The notes under the pieces were generated by a model that made no database searches, had not been told where the DNA came from, and was given only the letters and a program-made list of their open reading frames with translations. The position numbers and the translations under genes were made by a program. Positions 19,275 through 26,678 of a DNA stretch of 53,198 nucleotides are shown one piece after another. The DNA is from Candidatus Fermentithermobacillaceae bacterium (lineage in GTDB: Bacteria; Bacillota; Sulfobacillia; Fermentithermobacillales; Fermentithermobacillaceae). The first letter of the stretch is position 1; each line of letters begins with the position of its first letter. The stretch is from NCBI GenBank assembly GCA_012841375.1, contig DUUV01000157.1:1-53198 (forward strand). Direction: 5' to 3'.

Positions 19275-19360
19275 ACGGTGCCAAATTATGGTGATTCCCT
19301 GTGCCGGTGCTTGTCCTTGTCGCGCGTAAGGCAGTTGGATATTATGAATGAGTGCACCGT
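19275..19360 (+). promoter_or_regulatory. Long-range leader hairpin upstream of the ECF S-component gene
   Basis: ACGGTGC (19275-19281) pairs perfectly with GCACCGT (19354-19360), enclosing a smaller CCTT/AAGG stem. After it, GTCAC can pair with GTGAT, which overlaps the GGAGGTGAT ribosome binding site of the ECF gene. This looks like a translation-controlling leader. FolT genes are often under a tetrahydrofolate riboswitch, but I could not fit this sequence to that consensus. Confidence 0.4.
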
Positions 19361-19391
19361 TAATGGGGTCACGAGTCCGGAGGTGATCTAC

Positions 19392-19940
19392 ATGAATAAA
19401 GCCAGACAAGTTGCTTTCACGGGACCTATCATAGCACTGTCTGTTGTTCTCACCCGGTTCGCGTCGCTCCGGATTGCCATAGGGGGAGTCGAGGGGATCA
19501 GGGTCGGTCTGGGTAGTCTACCCAATATCATGGCCGGGATGCTTATGGGTCCGCTGTACGGAGCAGTGTCAGGGGCCGCGGCGGACGTCATCGGCTTCAT
19601 CCTTAGCCCAATGGGCGGTGCCTACATGCCCCATTTCACGCTGGCCTCCGGCCTAATGGGGGCGCTCCCCGGCCTCGTCTTCAGAGCCATGCGCAAGAGC
19701 CGGGCGGCAAGCCGCATCCCCGAGCTGTATCAGATCGCCATATCTGTAGCCGCAGGGGTGGTCCTGGTCTCGTGGGGCCTCACTCCCTACTTCCTGAGCA
19801 CGCTTTTCGGGGTGCCGCGGGCAGTCACGATGCCTCCCAGGATCCTGGCGGCCATAGTCGAGGTTCCCGCGTACTCGGTCATCATTAAGGCGGTATCCTC
19901 GAGTTACGTGCGTTTGGTCGCGAGTCGACGGCCGGCATAG
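19392..19940 (+). CDS. folT: ECF transporter S component, FolT (folate) type
   Basis: A membrane protein of about 182 aa with some five to six hydrophobic segments, the size of an ECF substrate-binding S component. The stretches GLGSLPNIMAGMLMGPLYGA and DVIGFILSPMGGAYMPHFTL resemble the FolT group, which captures folates and works with a shared EcfT-EcfA module; those genes are not in the window. The start ATG at 19392 has GGAGGTGAT five bases upstream; the frame open from 19278 is not supported. The upstream leader can fold and may hide the ribosome binding site. Queuosine- or pantothenate-type S components are alternatives. It converges on polC with 13 bases between stop codons. Confidence 0.7.
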   Translation: MNKARQVAFTGPIIALSVVLTRFASLRIAIGGVEGIRVGLGSLPNIMAGMLMGPLYGAVSGAAADVIGFILSPMGGAYMPHFTLASGLMGALPGLVFRAMRKSRAASRIPELYQIAISVAAGVVLVSWGLTPYFLSTLFGVPRAVTMPPRILAAIVEVPAYSVIIKAVSSSYVRLVASRRPA

Positions 19941-19953
19941 GAGCGCCAGCCTC

Positions 19954-22900
19954 CTAGAACAGGGAGAGCTGGTCTCCCTCAGGCAGTCCTTCCAGAACTC
20001 CGGCCTTCTTGAGCGCCTCGCATACTCTCTTGCCGAGTTTGGTCCGCCTCCGGAAGTCTTCAACAGATGTGAACGTGTCCTCCTCCCTGGCGTTTACAAT
20101 GGCCATGGCAGCCTGGTTGCCGATCCCCGGCACCGACACAAACGGCGGCAAGAGGACTTCTCCCTCGGGGACATATTTGTGTGAATGCGACTTGTACAGC
20201 GAGGGTTTCCCAAACCTGACGCCGCGCCGGTACATGTCGAGGGCCACCTCCAACACGCCGGCGGTGTCCTGTTCCTTGGCGGTGGCGTTCGGAGAAGCGC
20301 CGATCTTGTCTATCTGTTCCCTCCAGAGATCCGGGTCGTTGTGCATGTGCTCCACCGTCATGGATGAACCGTGGAAGGTGAAGTAAGCCGCCGCGAACGC
20401 CTGCGGATGATGAACCTTGAAGTAAGCGATCCGGAAGGCATTGGTGACGTATGCGGCAGCGTGAGCCTTGGGGAACAGGTAAGATATCTTCTTGCAGGAA
20501 TCCACGTACCACTCGGGCACCGAGGCTTGTCGCATAGCCCCGATATCTTCTTCCGAGAGAGGCCTTCCCTTTCTCACTTTCTCGGCGATTCCAAAAGCCA
20601 CGGCGCTGTCCATGCCAATCTTCATGAGGTACAGGAAGATGTCCTCGCGGGTGGCGATGACCTCCCTGAACTTGGCGGTACCGTTCTTGATCAGGTCCCG
20701 GGCATTGTTTGCCCACACGTCGGTACCGTGGGAAAGGCCGGATATCCTGACAAGGTCTCCAAAGGATGACGGTTTGGTCTCAGTGAGCATGTTCCGGACA
20801 AATCTCGTTCCGAATTCGGGAATGCCTATGGCGTCATCGGGATTTGCTCCGGAAAACAAGGCCAGCGTATCGGGATCGTCCATCGGCACCTTGAGAGGGT
20901 CAATACCGGTCAGTTCGTGGAGCATCTTGATGACCGTCGGGTCATCATGCCCCAGGATGTCCACCTTCACCAGATGGCCGGAGATGGAGTTGTAATCGAA
21001 ATGGGTCGTAATGGCTCCTGCGGTACGATCGTCGGCAGGAAACTGGAGCGGTGTGAAGTCCAAAACATCCATTCCTGTAGGAATGACCATCACACCTCCG
21101 GGGTGCTGTCCGGTGGTTCTCTTTACCCCCTCAAGCCCTGTGGAGAGTCTGGTCTCCTCCGCCCTCCTGAGGGTCAGTCCCCTGTCTTCGGCGTAGTGTT
21201 TCACGAAGCCGTAAGCTGTCTTGCGGGCGATGGTCCCTATGGTACCGGCCCTGAAGACGTTGCCCTCGCCGAGAAGCTCCGAGGCGAACTTGAAGATCTC
21301 GGCCTGCTCTTCGCCTGAGAAGTTCAGGTCGATATCGGGGACCTTTTCGCCGTGGAAGCCCATGAATGTTTCGAAGGGGATGTCCTGTCCGTCCCGCCAA
21401 AGTTCGGCCCCGCACTCAGGACACTTCCCAGGCGCCAGGTCAAACCCCGAGTCTACCTGCTGGGCAGGCTCAAAATCGCTCCACCTGCACCCGGGACACA
21501 CATAATGCGGTTTCAGAGGGTTGACTTCCGTTATTCCCGTGCACGTCGCCACAAGCGACGACCCGACAGAGCCCCTGGATCCCACGAAATACCCGTCCGC
21601 CAGGGACTTCTCAACCATCCTGATGGCGATCATGTAGAGTGACGAGAACCCGTTGCCGATGATGGCACCCAGTTCCTTCTCAAGCCGTTCTTCCACCAGA
21701 GCCGGCAAGGGGTCTCCGTATATGCGTTTGGCCCCTTCTTCGGCAAGATGTCTGAGTTCCCGGTCTGCGTTTGGAAGAGAAGGGAAGTATGACCCCTCTG
21801 GAACAGGACGGAGGTTCTCGATCGAAGCTGCCAGCGTCACCGGGTTGGTGATGACGACTTCACAAGCGGCCTGAGCGCCCAGGTACTCGGTGGCCTCGAC
21901 CATCAGTTCGTCGGTCGACCTGAAGTGAAGTGGCACCGACCGTTCGCCCTCAACCATCCCCTTTCCCGACAGGAGGATAGTACGGTATATCTCATCTTCA
22001 GGGTCCAGGTAGTGGACGTCACCGGACATGACGCACATCCGCCCGGTCGCCTTGGCCAGATCGTAGATCCGCTTGTTCAGTAACCCCAGTGCCTCCTCGT
22101 CGACGATGGGTTCCTGACCGATGAGATGCCTGTTGTTGTCTATAGGTTGGATTTCCAGGTAATCGTAGAAGGACGCGATCTTTCTGAGGTCTTCATCGCT
22201 CGCCCCATTCAGCAGGGCTTGTACCAGCTCACCCGCCTCGCAGGCCGATCCCACGAGAAGCCCTTCCCGCTTTTCTTCCAGGAGCCTGCGAGGGATGCGC
22301 GGCGTCCGGTAGAAGTGCTTGAGATGGGACTCGGTCACGATTTCGTAGAGGTGCCGGAGGCCCGTCTTGTTTTTCGCCAGGAGGACCACATGGAACGCCC
22401 GGCCTTTCTCGTCGTCTTCAACCAGGTACCCCTCGAGACCGTAGATAATCTTTACACCGTGTTTCTTGCCCTCGGCGTAGGCCTCGGGAAAGGTCTGCAC
22501 CACGCCGTGGTCGGTTACTGCGATAGCCGGATGGCCCCATTCTTTCGCGCGCTCCACTGCCTTGCCTATGGAAAGGACCGAGTCCATCTGGCTCATCTTC
22601 GTGTGGAGGTGAAGCTCAACCCTCTTCTCCGGATACGGGTCTTTCCTGCACTCGGCCGGGCAGGGTACTATGTCACTCTCGTTGGTAGCCAGCATCGGCT
22701 CTGAATCGAAGCGGTCGATTCCGGACCGCCCCCGCAGGACCACCTGGGTTCCGCGCTCCAACCAGTCCATCTTCGCGTCCAGGTTGTGGATCCTCACCTT
22801 GACCGAGTCAGTCCTATCGGTCACCACAATCGTCCCGTCTACCTTGCCGAACCGGTTGGTTCTCCAGTCCACTTCCACTACCTCGCCCCAGACGGTGACC

Positions 22901-23379
22901 CTCCCTCTCTCGCCGCCTGTAAGCTCCTTTATGGGTACAGCCTGGCTGCGGTCAGGCGCTGCCCTGCGGGAAGTCCTCTGGGAAGCGCCCCTTGCGGTGT
23001 AACCGTTCCCGTACGGTCGCGACCCGTTGCTCACCGGCTCTCCCTCAGGCTTGGGTGGGGACTCTCTGAATGTCTGCGGCAAGTCCTCGGGTGTTATCCA
23101 CTTGACCTGGTCCAGCCCGGCTATCTTCTTGCGTAGCTCCTGCCTTGCGGTGGCAAGCAGCACCTCAAACTCGTCCAATGACACGTCTCGAGAGATACCG
23201 GACCATGCCTTCCTGTCAGGCACGTCCAACACAACGGTCCACGAACACTCCTGGGGGTCTACGTGAATGGATCTGACGACAAGGTGGGATAGCAGGTCCT
23301 TCCCGGCCCATTCACCGGGTTCAATAATGTCGGTAAGTCTCGGGCAGTCTGAAGACGGCTCTATGCTAACGCGGGACAA
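19954..23379 (-). CDS. polC: DNA polymerase III alpha subunit, PolC type, lacking the exonuclease domain
   Basis: The replicative polymerase of Bacillota (1141 aa; common PolC proteins have about 1400 or more). Domains in order are an N-terminal region (1-110), a linker, an OB fold (about 160-240), a PHP domain starting VELHLHT (H257, H259) with VTDHG (D290, H291), a four-cysteine zinc motif (C628, C631, C653, C656), the catalytic palm with D682 and D684 in PDIDLNFSGEE, fingers, and a C-terminal clamp-binding QLSLF. The usual DEDD exonuclease between the two PHP halves is absent: residues about 312-330 pass directly from IYGLEGYLVEDD to GRAFHVVLLAKN. The start is a TTG with GGAGGG eight bases upstream. 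It is the last gene of the long minus-strand block. Confidence 0.93.
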   Translation of the reverse strand: MSRVSIEPSSDCPRLTDIIEPGEWAGKDLLSHLVVRSIHVDPQECSWTVVLDVPDRKAWSGISRDVSLDEFEVLLATARQELRKKIAGLDQVKWITPEDLPQTFRESPPKPEGEPVSNGSRPYGNGYTARGASQRTSRRAAPDRSQAVPIKELTGGERGRVTVWGEVVEVDWRTNRFGKVDGTIVVTDRTDSVKVRIHNLDAKMDWLERGTQVVLRGRSGIDRFDSEPMLATNESDIVPCPAECRKDPYPEKRVELHLHTKMSQMDSVLSIGKAVERAKEWGHPAIAVTDHGVVQTFPEAYAEGKKHGVKIIYGLEGYLVEDDEKGRAFHVVLLAKNKTGLRHLYEIVTESHLKHFYRTPRIPRRLLEEKREGLLVGSACEAGELVQALLNGASDEDLRKIASFYDYLEIQPIDNNRHLIGQEPIVDEEALGLLNKRIYDLAKATGRMCVMSGDVHYLDPEDEIYRTILLSGKGMVEGERSVPLHFRSTDELMVEATEYLGAQAACEVVITNPVTLAASIENLRPVPEGSYFPSLPNADRELRHLAEEGAKRIYGDPLPALVEERLEKELGAIIGNGFSSLYMIAIRMVEKSLADGYFVGSRGSVGSSLVATCTGITEVNPLKPHYVCPGCRWSDFEPAQQVDSGFDLAPGKCPECGAELWRDGQDIPFETFMGFHGEKVPDIDLNFSGEEQAEIFKFASELLGEGNVFRAGTIGTIARKTAYGFVKHYAEDRGLTLRRAEETRLSTGLEGVKRTTGQHPGGVMVIPTGMDVLDFTPLQFPADDRTAGAITTHFDYNSISGHLVKVDILGHDDPTVIKMLHELTGIDPLKVPMDDPDTLALFSGANPDDAIGIPEFGTRFVRNMLTETKPSSFGDLVRISGLSHGTDVWANNARDLIKNGTAKFREVIATREDIFLYLMKIGMDSAVAFGIAEKVRKGRPLSEEDIGAMRQASVPEWYVDSCKKISYLFPKAHAAAYVTNAFRIAYFKVHHPQAFAAAYFTFHGSSMTVEHMHNDPDLWREQIDKIGASPNATAKEQDTAGVLEVALDMYRRGVRFGKPSLYKSHSHKYVPEGEVLLPPFVSVPGIGNQAAMAIVNAREEDTFTSVEDFRRRTKLGKRVCEALKKAGVLEGLPEGDQLSLF

Positions 23380-23398: not shown

Positions 23399-24478
23399 TT
23401 ATTTTGCTGCTTCGTGGGCCAGACGGACGAGAGCGTCGATCATCTCTTCCTCAGGAACCCTTCCCAGAACCTTTCCCCGCATAAAGAGGATTCCGCCGTC
23501 ACGGCCGCAGGCTACTCCAACATCCGCTTCTTTGGCTTCTCCGGGCCCGTTCACAGGACAACCCATGATTGCCACTTTCAGGGGGGCACGTATGTCACGG
23601 AGCCTTGCCGCTACTCCTTCGGCAACGGGTATGAGGTTTACCTGCGTTCTTCCGCAAGTCGGACACGATATTATCTCGGGACCGAAGAAAGCCACTTCGG
23701 CGGCCTGAAGGATGTCCCGGCCCGCCTTCACTTCATCAAGAGGTGAACCCGTCAAAGAAACCCGCAGAGTATCGCCCAGGCCCAGTGTCAGCAGCGACGA
23801 TATCCCTACCGCGGACTTGACGACGCCTCGAACGCCGGGTCCCGCTTCCGTTATCCCGATGTGGAACGGCCACCGGGTCTTCTCAGCCATGAGCGTGTAA
23901 GCCTTCACCGTCGCCCGCACGCCCGAGGACTTGAGGGAAATCACAAGGTTGCCGGTTCCGCTATCTTCCAGATATCCCAGGGCGCGTTCGGCGCTTTCAA
24001 CGAGAGCCTCGGGAACCGGACCTCCGTGCTTTTCAAGGATGTCCCTCTCAACCGAACCGCCGTTGATGCCTATCCTGATGGCAGTCCCTCTCTCCCGTGC
24101 CCTCTCTGCGACGGCGAGAAGTTTCTGGGGACCGCCGATGTTCCCGGGGTTGACTCTGATCTTGTCAGCACCCGCCAGAATGGCGGCAATGGCCAGGTTG
24201 TGGTCGAAGTGGATGTCCGCTACGATGGGACACATAGCTCCTGCTTTGATCTTCCGGAGGGCCTCGGCCGCTTCCATATCGGGGACGGCCACCCTGACGA
24301 TATCGGCGCCTGCTGCCGCGCACTCATTCACCTGCGCAAGAGTGGACCCTACGTCCCGGGTATCGGTCTTGGTCATGGTCTGGACCGAGACAGGACTGTC
24401 GCCGCCTATGACGACATTGCCGCAGCGGACCTGATGAGTCTCGCGACGCTTGAAGACCCGTTCCACGTCCCCGCACAT
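23399..24478 (-). CDS. ispG: 4-hydroxy-3-methylbut-2-enyl diphosphate synthase
   Basis: The MEP-pathway enzyme that reduces methylerythritol cyclodiphosphate to HMBPP using a [4Fe-4S] cluster (359 aa). The N-terminal TIM barrel begins GNVVIGGDSPVSVQTMTKTD. The cluster ligands are in SCPTCGR and in the C-terminal EADVGVACGRDGG and MGCPVNGPGE region. The length is usual for the bacterial short form. It begins immediately after the rseP stop with no strong ribosome binding site, so translation may depend on coupling. With dxr upstream it puts two MEP-pathway steps in one operon. Confidence 0.95.
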   Translation of the reverse strand: MCGDVERVFKRRETHQVRCGNVVIGGDSPVSVQTMTKTDTRDVGSTLAQVNECAAAGADIVRVAVPDMEAAEALRKIKAGAMCPIVADIHFDHNLAIAAILAGADKIRVNPGNIGGPQKLLAVAERARERGTAIRIGINGGSVERDILEKHGGPVPEALVESAERALGYLEDSGTGNLVISLKSSGVRATVKAYTLMAEKTRWPFHIGITEAGPGVRGVVKSAVGISSLLTLGLGDTLRVSLTGSPLDEVKAGRDILQAAEVAFFGPEIISCPTCGRTQVNLIPVAEGVAARLRDIRAPLKVAIMGCPVNGPGEAKEADVGVACGRDGGILFMRGKVLGRVPEEEMIDALVRLAHEAAK

Positions 24479-24480
24479 GG

Positions 24481-25515
24481 TTATCTCACTAGCCTCAGGA
24501 TGTCTTTATAGCTGATGAACACAAACAACGACATGAGCAGGAAGAACCCGACAAAGTGAACAAGGCTCTCCTTCTCCGGGTCGACGGGCTTCCCCCGAAC
24601 TCCTTCCGCCGCCAGGAATATGAGCCTGCTTCCATCCAGCGCCGGTATGGGCAGCAGGTTAATGAGCCCCAGGTTCGCAGACAGCGCTCCGAAGAGGTAG
24701 ACGAGCTCGCCAAGTCCTGTCCTGGCTGCTTCGCCGAGTATCTGGGTGATGCCGATGGGGCCGGTCACCTCTGGGGCGATCTTCCCGGCGATCATGCCGA
24801 TGATGCCCTGGATCCAGAGGACGCTCACAAGCAGGGTTTCCCTGATCCCTTGGTACAAACCTGCTATGAGGTTCATGCGTCTGGCTACGACTGTCGGGCG
24901 GACACCTATCAGTCCGGATCCTCCAACTTCCACCGGCACCATCTGGACGTCGAACTGCTCTCCGCCTCTCACCAAGGTGAGAGTCACCGTCTTTCCAGCG
25001 CTGGGCTGGATTCTACCGGTCAGTTCCTCCCACGATTGAATGGGGATGCCATCAATCGCGATCACTCTGTCACCCGCCTCCACCCCGGCAAGTTCTGCCG
25101 GGTAGCCGGGCATGATCTCGGAAAATGTCGTGGTCGGCGTGTTTATGCCCACCAACGAAAACACAACAAAGAACGCGACTGCGGCTATCAAGAGGTTTGC
25201 CAGAGGACCCGAGAAGATGATTGCCGCTCGCCTGCCGGGTGAAAGGCTGCTCAGAAGGCGATCACGCGGCAGGCCTGCGTCATCGTCGGCCGCCCGGGCG
25301 TCTTCTCCCGCGAAACGGTTGTAGCCTCCAAGCGGGATCAGGCGAAGTGAGTACTTGGTCTCGCCTTTCTGCCACGAAAAGACCTCCGGGCCCATGCCGA
25401 TGGCAAATTCGTGGATGTATACTCCTGTCCGTCTACCCGCAAGGAAGTGTCCCAGCTCGTGGAAAGTCACGAGGACCCCCAAGAGGACTACGGCGAGGAT
25501 GACCTCTGGCACCAT
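24481..25515 (-). CDS. rseP: RIP metalloprotease RseP (site-2 protease)
   Basis: A membrane-embedded zinc protease (344 aa) that cleaves transmembrane anti-sigma factors and other membrane peptides. HELGH (H19, E20, H23) lies in the first membrane segment, one PDZ domain occupies about residues 125-205, and the third metal ligand is in NLLPIPALDGSR. The ATG has AAGGAG six bases upstream. It lies between dxr and ispG, the usual order in Clostridia-like genomes. Confidence 0.95.
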   Translation of the reverse strand: MVPEVILAVVLLGVLVTFHELGHFLAGRRTGVYIHEFAIGMGPEVFSWQKGETKYSLRLIPLGGYNRFAGEDARAADDDAGLPRDRLLSSLSPGRRAAIIFSGPLANLLIAAVAFFVVFSLVGINTPTTTFSEIMPGYPAELAGVEAGDRVIAIDGIPIQSWEELTGRIQPSAGKTVTLTLVRGGEQFDVQMVPVEVGGSGLIGVRPTVVARRMNLIAGLYQGIRETLLVSVLWIQGIIGMIAGKIAPEVTGPIGITQILGEAARTGLGELVYLFGALSANLGLINLLPIPALDGSRLIFLAAEGVRGKPVDPEKESLVHFVGFFLLMSLFVFISYKDILRLVR

Positions 25516-25526
25516 ACATCGTCTCC

Positions 25527-26678
25527 TTAATGCAAGAGTTCTCTTACTTTCCGTCCGGCGCGAGCCGCTTCTTGGTATAGGATGTCCAGACCATCCACGG
25601 ATCTCGGTTTGTAGTCATCCAAGAGCCGGCAGAGAACTCTACAGATATCTAGAAATCCGATTCGCCCGGCCAGGAACTCGCGGACCAAGACCTCGTCGGC
25701 GTACGAAAGCGCGCACGGCGCCGTACCACCCATCTTTCCTGCCCTGTGTCCCAACGTTACGCCCGGAAATCTCGTAACGTCCGGTTCCTCAAAGGTAAGC
25801 GTCCCTTGATAGGGCGACAGAGACGGAACGACTCCCCCACGCCTTTCAGGATACGTTATGCCGTAACTAATCGCTAAACTCATGTCGGGCACCGAGGCTT
25901 GGGCTTTGGTTGAGCCGTCCACGAACGTCACCATAGAGTGTACGATACTCTGACGGTGAATGACGACTTTGAGTTTCTCATAGGGCACGCCGAAGAGAAA
26001 ATGGGCTTCCATGACCTCAAGCGACTTGTTGACGAGAGTGGCTGAGTCAACGGTGACCTTCTTGCCCATCTTCCAGGTGGGATGAGCCAGTACTTCGTCA
26101 GGCGTCACATGCCGGAGGCGCTCCGGTTCGTAATCCCGGAGGGCTCCTCCGGAAGCGGTAAGCACTACCTCGGCAACAGAGCCCGGATCTTCGCCCAAAA
26201 GACACTGGAACACGGCCGAATGCTCGGAATCGACGGGGACCAGCCGTCCCGGGTTGCCCCTAAGGAAAGGCTCAATCATATCTCCGGCCGACACCAGGGC
26301 CTCTTTCCCGGCGAACGCGACCCGCTTTCCGCTCTCCAAAGCGCCGAGGAGGGGCGCGATCCCGGCGAATCCGGGCACGGCATGGACAACCACCGTGGCG
26401 TCCTCTAGTGCGGCGCAGGCGGAGACGCCTTCCGGTCCGGAGAGAACCTTGACCCGGTCCAAACCGAAGGACCCTTTTTCTCGCTCGGCAGCCATTGCAG
26501 CGAGCGGATCTTCCAACGCGATCACGCTTGCGCCGAATTCTCTCGCCTGGGCGAGGATCTGCTCCCAGTTGGTGGCGGCGGCAAGAGCGACGACCTTAAG
26601 GCCCGGGTCGTTCTTGACGACATCGAGGGTCTGCAATCCGATGGAGCCTGTGGAACCTAGCACCGACAAGGATATCAG
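25527..26678 (-). CDS. dxr: 1-deoxy-D-xylulose 5-phosphate reductoisomerase
   Basis: The first committed MEP-pathway enzyme, converting DXP to MEP with NADPH (383 aa from the start chosen). The NADPH loop SVLGSTGSIG is at the N-terminus. The metal-binding and substrate region has DSEHSAVFQ, and the ALRDYEPERLRHVTPDEVLAHP and WKMGKKVTVDSATL blocks are intact. The only ATG/GTG/TTG choice is TTG at 26669. I prefer the CTG at 26678: it overlaps the preceding gene's TGA as CTGA, has GGTGGTG about six bases upstream, and restores the usual family length before LSVLGSTG. A stop codon just upstream (26684) prevents any longer protein. Confidence 0.93.
   Translation of the reverse strand: MISLSVLGSTGSIGLQTLDVVKNDPGLKVVALAAATNWEQILAQAREFGASVIALEDPLAAMAAEREKGSFGLDRVKVLSGPEGVSACAALEDATVVVHAVPGFAGIAPLLGALESGKRVAFAGKEALVSAGDMIEPFLRGNPGRLVPVDSEHSAVFQCLLGEDPGSVAEVVLTASGGALRDYEPERLRHVTPDEVLAHPTWKMGKKVTVDSATLVNKSLEVMEAHFLFGVPYEKLKVVIHRQSIVHSMVTFVDGSTKAQASVPDMSLAISYGITYPERRGGVVPSLSPYQGTLTFEEPDVTRFPGVTLGHRAGKMGGTAPCALSYADEVLVREFLAGRIGFLDICRVLCRLLDDYKPRSVDGLDILYQEAARAGRKVRELLH

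Follow-up and report, generated by a model that had tools for sequence, protein, structure and literature searches.

A PolC-type polymerase without a DEDDh exonuclease and with a complete PHP metal site in a Fermentithermobacillaceae bacterium

Introduction

What corrects the errors of a replicative polymerase that carries no proofreading exonuclease domain? The question is raised by a polC gene in a 53,198-nucleotide stretch of DNA (the window; contig DUUV01000157.1, assembly GCA_012841375.1) from a Candidatus Fermentithermobacillaceae bacterium. A first-pass annotation, made from the sequence alone, described a PolC without its DEDD exonuclease, in which the two halves of the PHP domain are joined directly around residues 312–330 and the polymerase, zinc and clamp-binding motifs are intact. 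If this is real, it reasoned, either another subunit must do the proofreading or the function is gone.

A PolC-type polymerase without the exonuclease insertion

The features of the gene and its upstream neighbours are as follows.

19954–23379, minus strand: polC, encoding a 1141-residue PolC-type DNA polymerase III alpha subunit that lacks the DEDDh exonuclease insertion
23065–23379, minus strand: N-terminal region, residues 1–105 (AlphaFold2 model)
22648–22944, minus strand: OB domain, residues 146–244 (structure alignment)
21820–22623, minus strand: PHP domain, about residues 253–520 (Pfam, alignments and structure comparison)
22393–22431, minus strand: junction loop, residues 317–329, between two PHP strands (alignments and model)
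21412–21498, minus strand: zinc Cys4, C628, C631, C653 and C656, intact
21328–21336, minus strand: polymerase catalytic motif D682-I-D684 (PDIDLNF), aspartates intact
19957–19971, minus strand: C-terminal clamp-binding motif QLSLF, residues 1137–1141, intact
23399–24478, minus strand: ispG, upstream neighbour of polC
24481–25515, minus strand: rseP, part of the order dxr-rseP-ispG-polC
25527–26669, minus strand: dxr, part of the same order

The open reading frame begins with a TTG codon. Its product scores above the curated cut-offs of two NCBIfam PolC models (TIGR01405, 1220.6 bits against 1043; NF001688, 1317.5 against 873), and Pfam finds a contiguous PHP domain (residues 255–405), the polymerase core, the fingers and the HhH domain. 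The OB domain before PHP and the clamp motif at the C-terminus are also as in the PolC type, and all the motifs that the first-pass annotation called intact are indeed so. The order dxr-rseP-ispG-polC, which we take to be close to that around polC in B. subtilis, also supports orthology. On the plus strand, convergent to polC, lies a gene for a folate-family ECF transporter S component (19278–19940; TIGR04518 over its cut-off).

The AlphaFold2 model, built without metals, has a mean pLDDT of 83.5. Its best matches are PolC structures, among them those of G. kaustophilus (3f2b, Z 42.9) and E. faecium (9qpc, Z 49.0), which share the OB, PHP, polymerase core and HhH regions. The crystallized 3f2b construct had its exonuclease artificially removed; the natural PolCs of both species carry the domain. 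The OB domain of the model aligns with the OB folds of RPA and AspRS, and with the PolC structures from residue 140 onward. Residues 1–105 match no family; they are conserved within the order and folded in the model, mostly with pLDDT 70–89, and likely correspond to the PolC NTD.

In canonical PolC of the B. subtilis architecture, a DEDDh exonuclease lies within the PHP domain. In the window PolC, Pfam finds no exonuclease family at E ≤ 1 in the 1141 residues. Aligned with E. faecium PolC, residues 147–323 correspond to 253–432 of the 9qpc chain and residues 324–1141 to 635–1471, leaving about 202 residues of the E. faecium protein without a counterpart. The gap falls exactly at 323/324 (nucleotide ~22,410), inside the span where the PHP halves had been proposed to meet. 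In the model, the junction sits between PHP strands 310–320 and 329–335, in agreement with the published insertion site of the PolC exonuclease between the third and fourth PHP strands (PMC12592400). Where other PolCs hold a 211–219-residue stretch with the DEDDh exonuclease, this protein has a loop of 13 residues. A degenerate exonuclease remnant is ruled out, as only these 13 residues separate E316 from H330.

The window genome is a draft of 157 contigs, and the first-pass annotation had allowed that an exonuclease-coding insertion might have been deleted in assembly. Within the order, 15 further genomes were searched, from two families and including one that is a single contig. All of them align colinearly through the junction and none has an insertion there; 14 cover most of the gene, and G003, at a contig end, covers residues 1–425 only. 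Across the phylum, at least 107 genomes match without a break at this point. These matches leave an assembly or annotation artefact with practically no probability. Throughout the order, PolC lacks the DEDDh exonuclease and has a whole PHP domain with nine metal ligands.

Distribution of the exonuclease-less form

PolCs without the Exo insertion (hereafter exo-less) were reported in 2013 by Timinskas et al. In its account of this form, the survey counts them as 6% of PolCs then known and places all but one, a copy from Thermotogae, in the Clostridia and Negativicutes (PMC3919608). As described there, the domain order is that of PolC, the Exo insertion is absent from PHP, and the genome pairs the enzyme with DnaE1. 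The same combination is found here, so that the window PolC adds one member to a known form; named relatives with an exo-less PolC include Moorella, Desulfosporosinus, Anaerospora, Selenomonas, Veillonella and Syntrophomonas. Two differences from that account are the order, which is related to Ca. Fermentithermobacillia and is not among the lineages named in it, and a third, error-prone-type polymerase in the window genome. The closest named PolCs, from Ca. Fermentithermobacillaceae (L076, L077 and L105), are about 60% identical to the window PolC. Our literature searches on Veillonella and on the window's lineage found nothing relevant.

A strong PolC match was obtained in 214 of 299 sampled genomes of the phylum. 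Among the 150 matches listed, 107 are unbroken across the junction, in frames of 1092–1350 residues. No fewer than half of the sampled genomes with PolC thus have the exo-less form; as the count covers the 150 listed, higher-scoring rows, the true share may be higher. The architecture is not unusual. One genome with a long PolC frame, G084, encodes an exo-less protein in which an 84-residue linker of low complexity occupies the insertion site. In the window's class, four genomes (G016–G019) gave only DnaE-like partial matches and may lack PolC altogether.

The PHP metal site

The PHP-exonuclease polymerases of the M. tuberculosis DnaE1 and Thermus type have a nine-ligand pattern, HHDHEH[C/H]DH. 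The window PolC has every one of these ligands: H257, H259, D266, H291, E316, H330, C380, D454 and H456 (HHDHEHCDH). By motif position, D266 and D454 correspond to D23 and D226 of M. tuberculosis DnaE1, both of which are required for exonuclease activity; D226N abolishes the activity and leaves expression and metal content unaffected (PMC5636811). The two proteins have the same zinc ligands and neither carries a DEDD exonuclease. They differ in that the window enzyme is of the PolC and not the DnaE type, in that a PHP exonuclease is known there and only predicted here, and in the loop at the site, which has 13 residues here and 29 in the M. tuberculosis enzyme, whose loop lines the path of the DNA. 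In G. kaustophilus PolC one ligand is altered, unlike in the window PolC, and the enzyme shows no PHP exonuclease (PMC5636811).

In the alignment, the nine ligands are intact in 86 of the 87 exo-less PolC rows that cover all nine positions (84 rows without known duplicates); the exo-less PolC of Moorella thermoacetica (L104) has all nine. Among exo-containing rows, 16 of 34 are intact and 18 have D454N; all 18 are from Bacilli, a contrast drawn from one clade and phylogenetically non-independent. Clostridial and Halanaerobial exo-containing PolCs likewise keep the nine ligands, so an intact PHP site is not specific to the exo-less form. A strict rule, by which PHP is intact where the exonuclease is absent and broken where it is present, is rejected by the exo-containing Clostridia and by Veillonella.

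In all six genomes recovered by a genus search around Veillonella sp. 3310 (L184–L189), PolC is exo-less and carries both D266N and D454N; V. montpellierensis (L099) keeps all nine ligands. Four Veillonella genomes were checked for DnaE1, and in each its PHP site is intact. Two genomes checked encode stand-alone DEDDh proteins (L179 and L180) of 209–216 residues ending in QMSFF and QDTFF, tails that by sequence resemble clamp-binding motifs. The Veillonella with both substitutions may proofread in trans.

A PHP-domain substitution in PolC1, E587K, was found in methanol-adapted Sporomusa ovata, and its authors suggested that it might raise the mutation rate (PMC4632017); its bearing on proofreading by the PolC PHP domain is suggestive only.

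Decay of the exonuclease and direction of change

One family (f29) holds several stages of exonuclease loss. Five genomes of three sister genera of g101 (G282, G038, G080, G240 and G171) have a complete DEDDh motif. In two genomes of genus g101 (G261 and G146) the 198-residue insertion is kept and all five catalytic residues are replaced (AGGGE and AAGGE); in G261, the one tested, Pfam no longer recognises the exonuclease. In a third genome of the genus, G117, the insertion is deleted, and PolC is 89% identical to that of G261 outside it. PHP is intact in all these PolCs, those of g101 (L210/L211, L212 and L173/L213) included. Genus g101 thus shows decay and then deletion of the exonuclease within one lineage; this is not evidence for the history of the window's order. 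A recent paper states that in Pol III alpha subunits it is the PHP site, and not DnaQ, that is inactivated (PMC12926913). With a dead, then deleted exonuclease and an intact PHP, this genus is an exception to that statement.

On a tree of 104 PolCs, the exonuclease state requires at least four changes, and four to six over the trees considered. A single clade of exo-containing PolCs is rejected on 36 rows (p-AU 5e-10). In a tree rooted with DnaE1, the first branches are exo-less with modest support; this tree has a long root branch and includes neither Thermotogae nor Fusobacteria. The tree of the exonuclease domain is too weakly resolved to separate regain from retention. The exo-less first branches and the rejection of one exo-containing clade would fit a history in which PolC at first proofread through a zinc-dependent PHP site, with no DEDD exonuclease, then acquired the insertion and lost it again several times; we regard this history as doubtful.

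Other polymerases and exonucleases

The window genome, which is 97.8% complete, was surveyed by family and protein searches. It encodes three C-family polymerases: PolC, DnaE1 (contig C126; NF005298 over its cut-off) and an error-prone-type DnaE (contig C118). The second polymerase for which the first-pass annotation advised a search is therefore present. The search for a stand-alone DnaQ, which it also suggested, found none in this genome. PF00929 matches a single protein, an 898-residue frame related to DinG-type exonuclease-helicases, with a complete DEDDh motif. No Pol I-type 3'-5' exonuclease domain (PF01612) was found, and MutS is present.

Most genomes of the order have the same single DinG-length DEDDh frame; G007 and G008 have one further, shorter DEDDh frame. 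No DEDDh protein was found in G005, of the same family and 92% complete. Of 30 exo-less genomes sampled from other parts of the phylum, nine likewise gave none (94–100% complete; G147, G280, G259, G036, G304, G126, G121, G043 and G039). In the 20 genomes with long PolC frames, a DEDDh match was found in 19, within PolC itself; the twentieth is G084.

In the window genome, as in most genomes checked, DnaE1 has an intact PHP site. The third, error-prone-type polymerase (L002, L202–L205 and L207) has a D-to-N change at the position equivalent to D454, both here and in five of the six other genomes checked, so that intact PHP sites go with the replicative enzymes. In G259, one of the genomes with no DEDDh match, both DnaE-type polymerases (L201 and L206) have a degenerate PHP site and that of PolC is intact.

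Discussion

We consider the window protein to be a genuine, orthologous replicative PolC of a natural exo-less form that probably proofreads in cis with its own zinc-dependent PHP exonuclease, and assign this reading a probability of about 0.72. Ligand conservation, the absence of alternatives in several genomes and the precedent of the Mycobacterium enzyme make the PHP exonuclease, we infer, the likeliest proofreader, ahead of a separate subunit or loss. The choice between those two in the first-pass annotation is not supported as it stood: no stand-alone DnaQ was found in the window genome, and the nine PHP ligands kept by PolC offer a third route. On this reading, a 3' end carrying a mismatch would move from the polymerase site to the PHP site of the same chain, where a water molecule activated by D454, the counterpart of M. 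tuberculosis D226, would cut it. DnaE1, with its own PHP site intact, may contribute, and MutS would remove remaining errors.

Several observations count against PHP proofreading in PolC: the short loop, the intact ligands of clostridial exo-containing enzymes, the origin of the D454N contrast in a single clade, and Veillonella, which has lost both exonuclease sites of PolC and evidently survives. Our literature search found no report of exonuclease activity for any PolC PHP domain.

A separate exonuclease acting in trans, either the DinG-like DEDDh protein or the PHP site of DnaE1 on errors made by PolC, seems to us unlikely. The DinG-like protein keeps its full motif and is found in most relatives; its architecture, however, is not known as that of a replicative proofreader, and DEDDh matches are absent from G005 and from the nine exo-less genomes listed above. 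The intact DnaE1 site makes that enzyme a candidate here, but in G259 both DnaE sites are broken. Correction in trans has a parallel in B. subtilis, where the PolC exonuclease is reported to complement DnaE3 in trans (PMC12926913), and perhaps another in the stand-alone Veillonella proteins with their clamp-motif-like tails.

Loss or weakening of replicative proofreading, with fidelity left to base selection and mismatch repair, is more improbable still. The presence of MutS and the double loss in Veillonella PolC are compatible with it; strict conservation of nine ligands through the order and in most exo-less PolCs would be unexpected for a useless site, although fold stability may need the metals.

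If PolC does proofread through its PHP domain, a large share of the phylum would depend for replication fidelity on a zinc exonuclease inside PolC. The exo-less genomes, and especially those in which no DEDDh protein was found, are a natural test of PHP proofreading by PolC.
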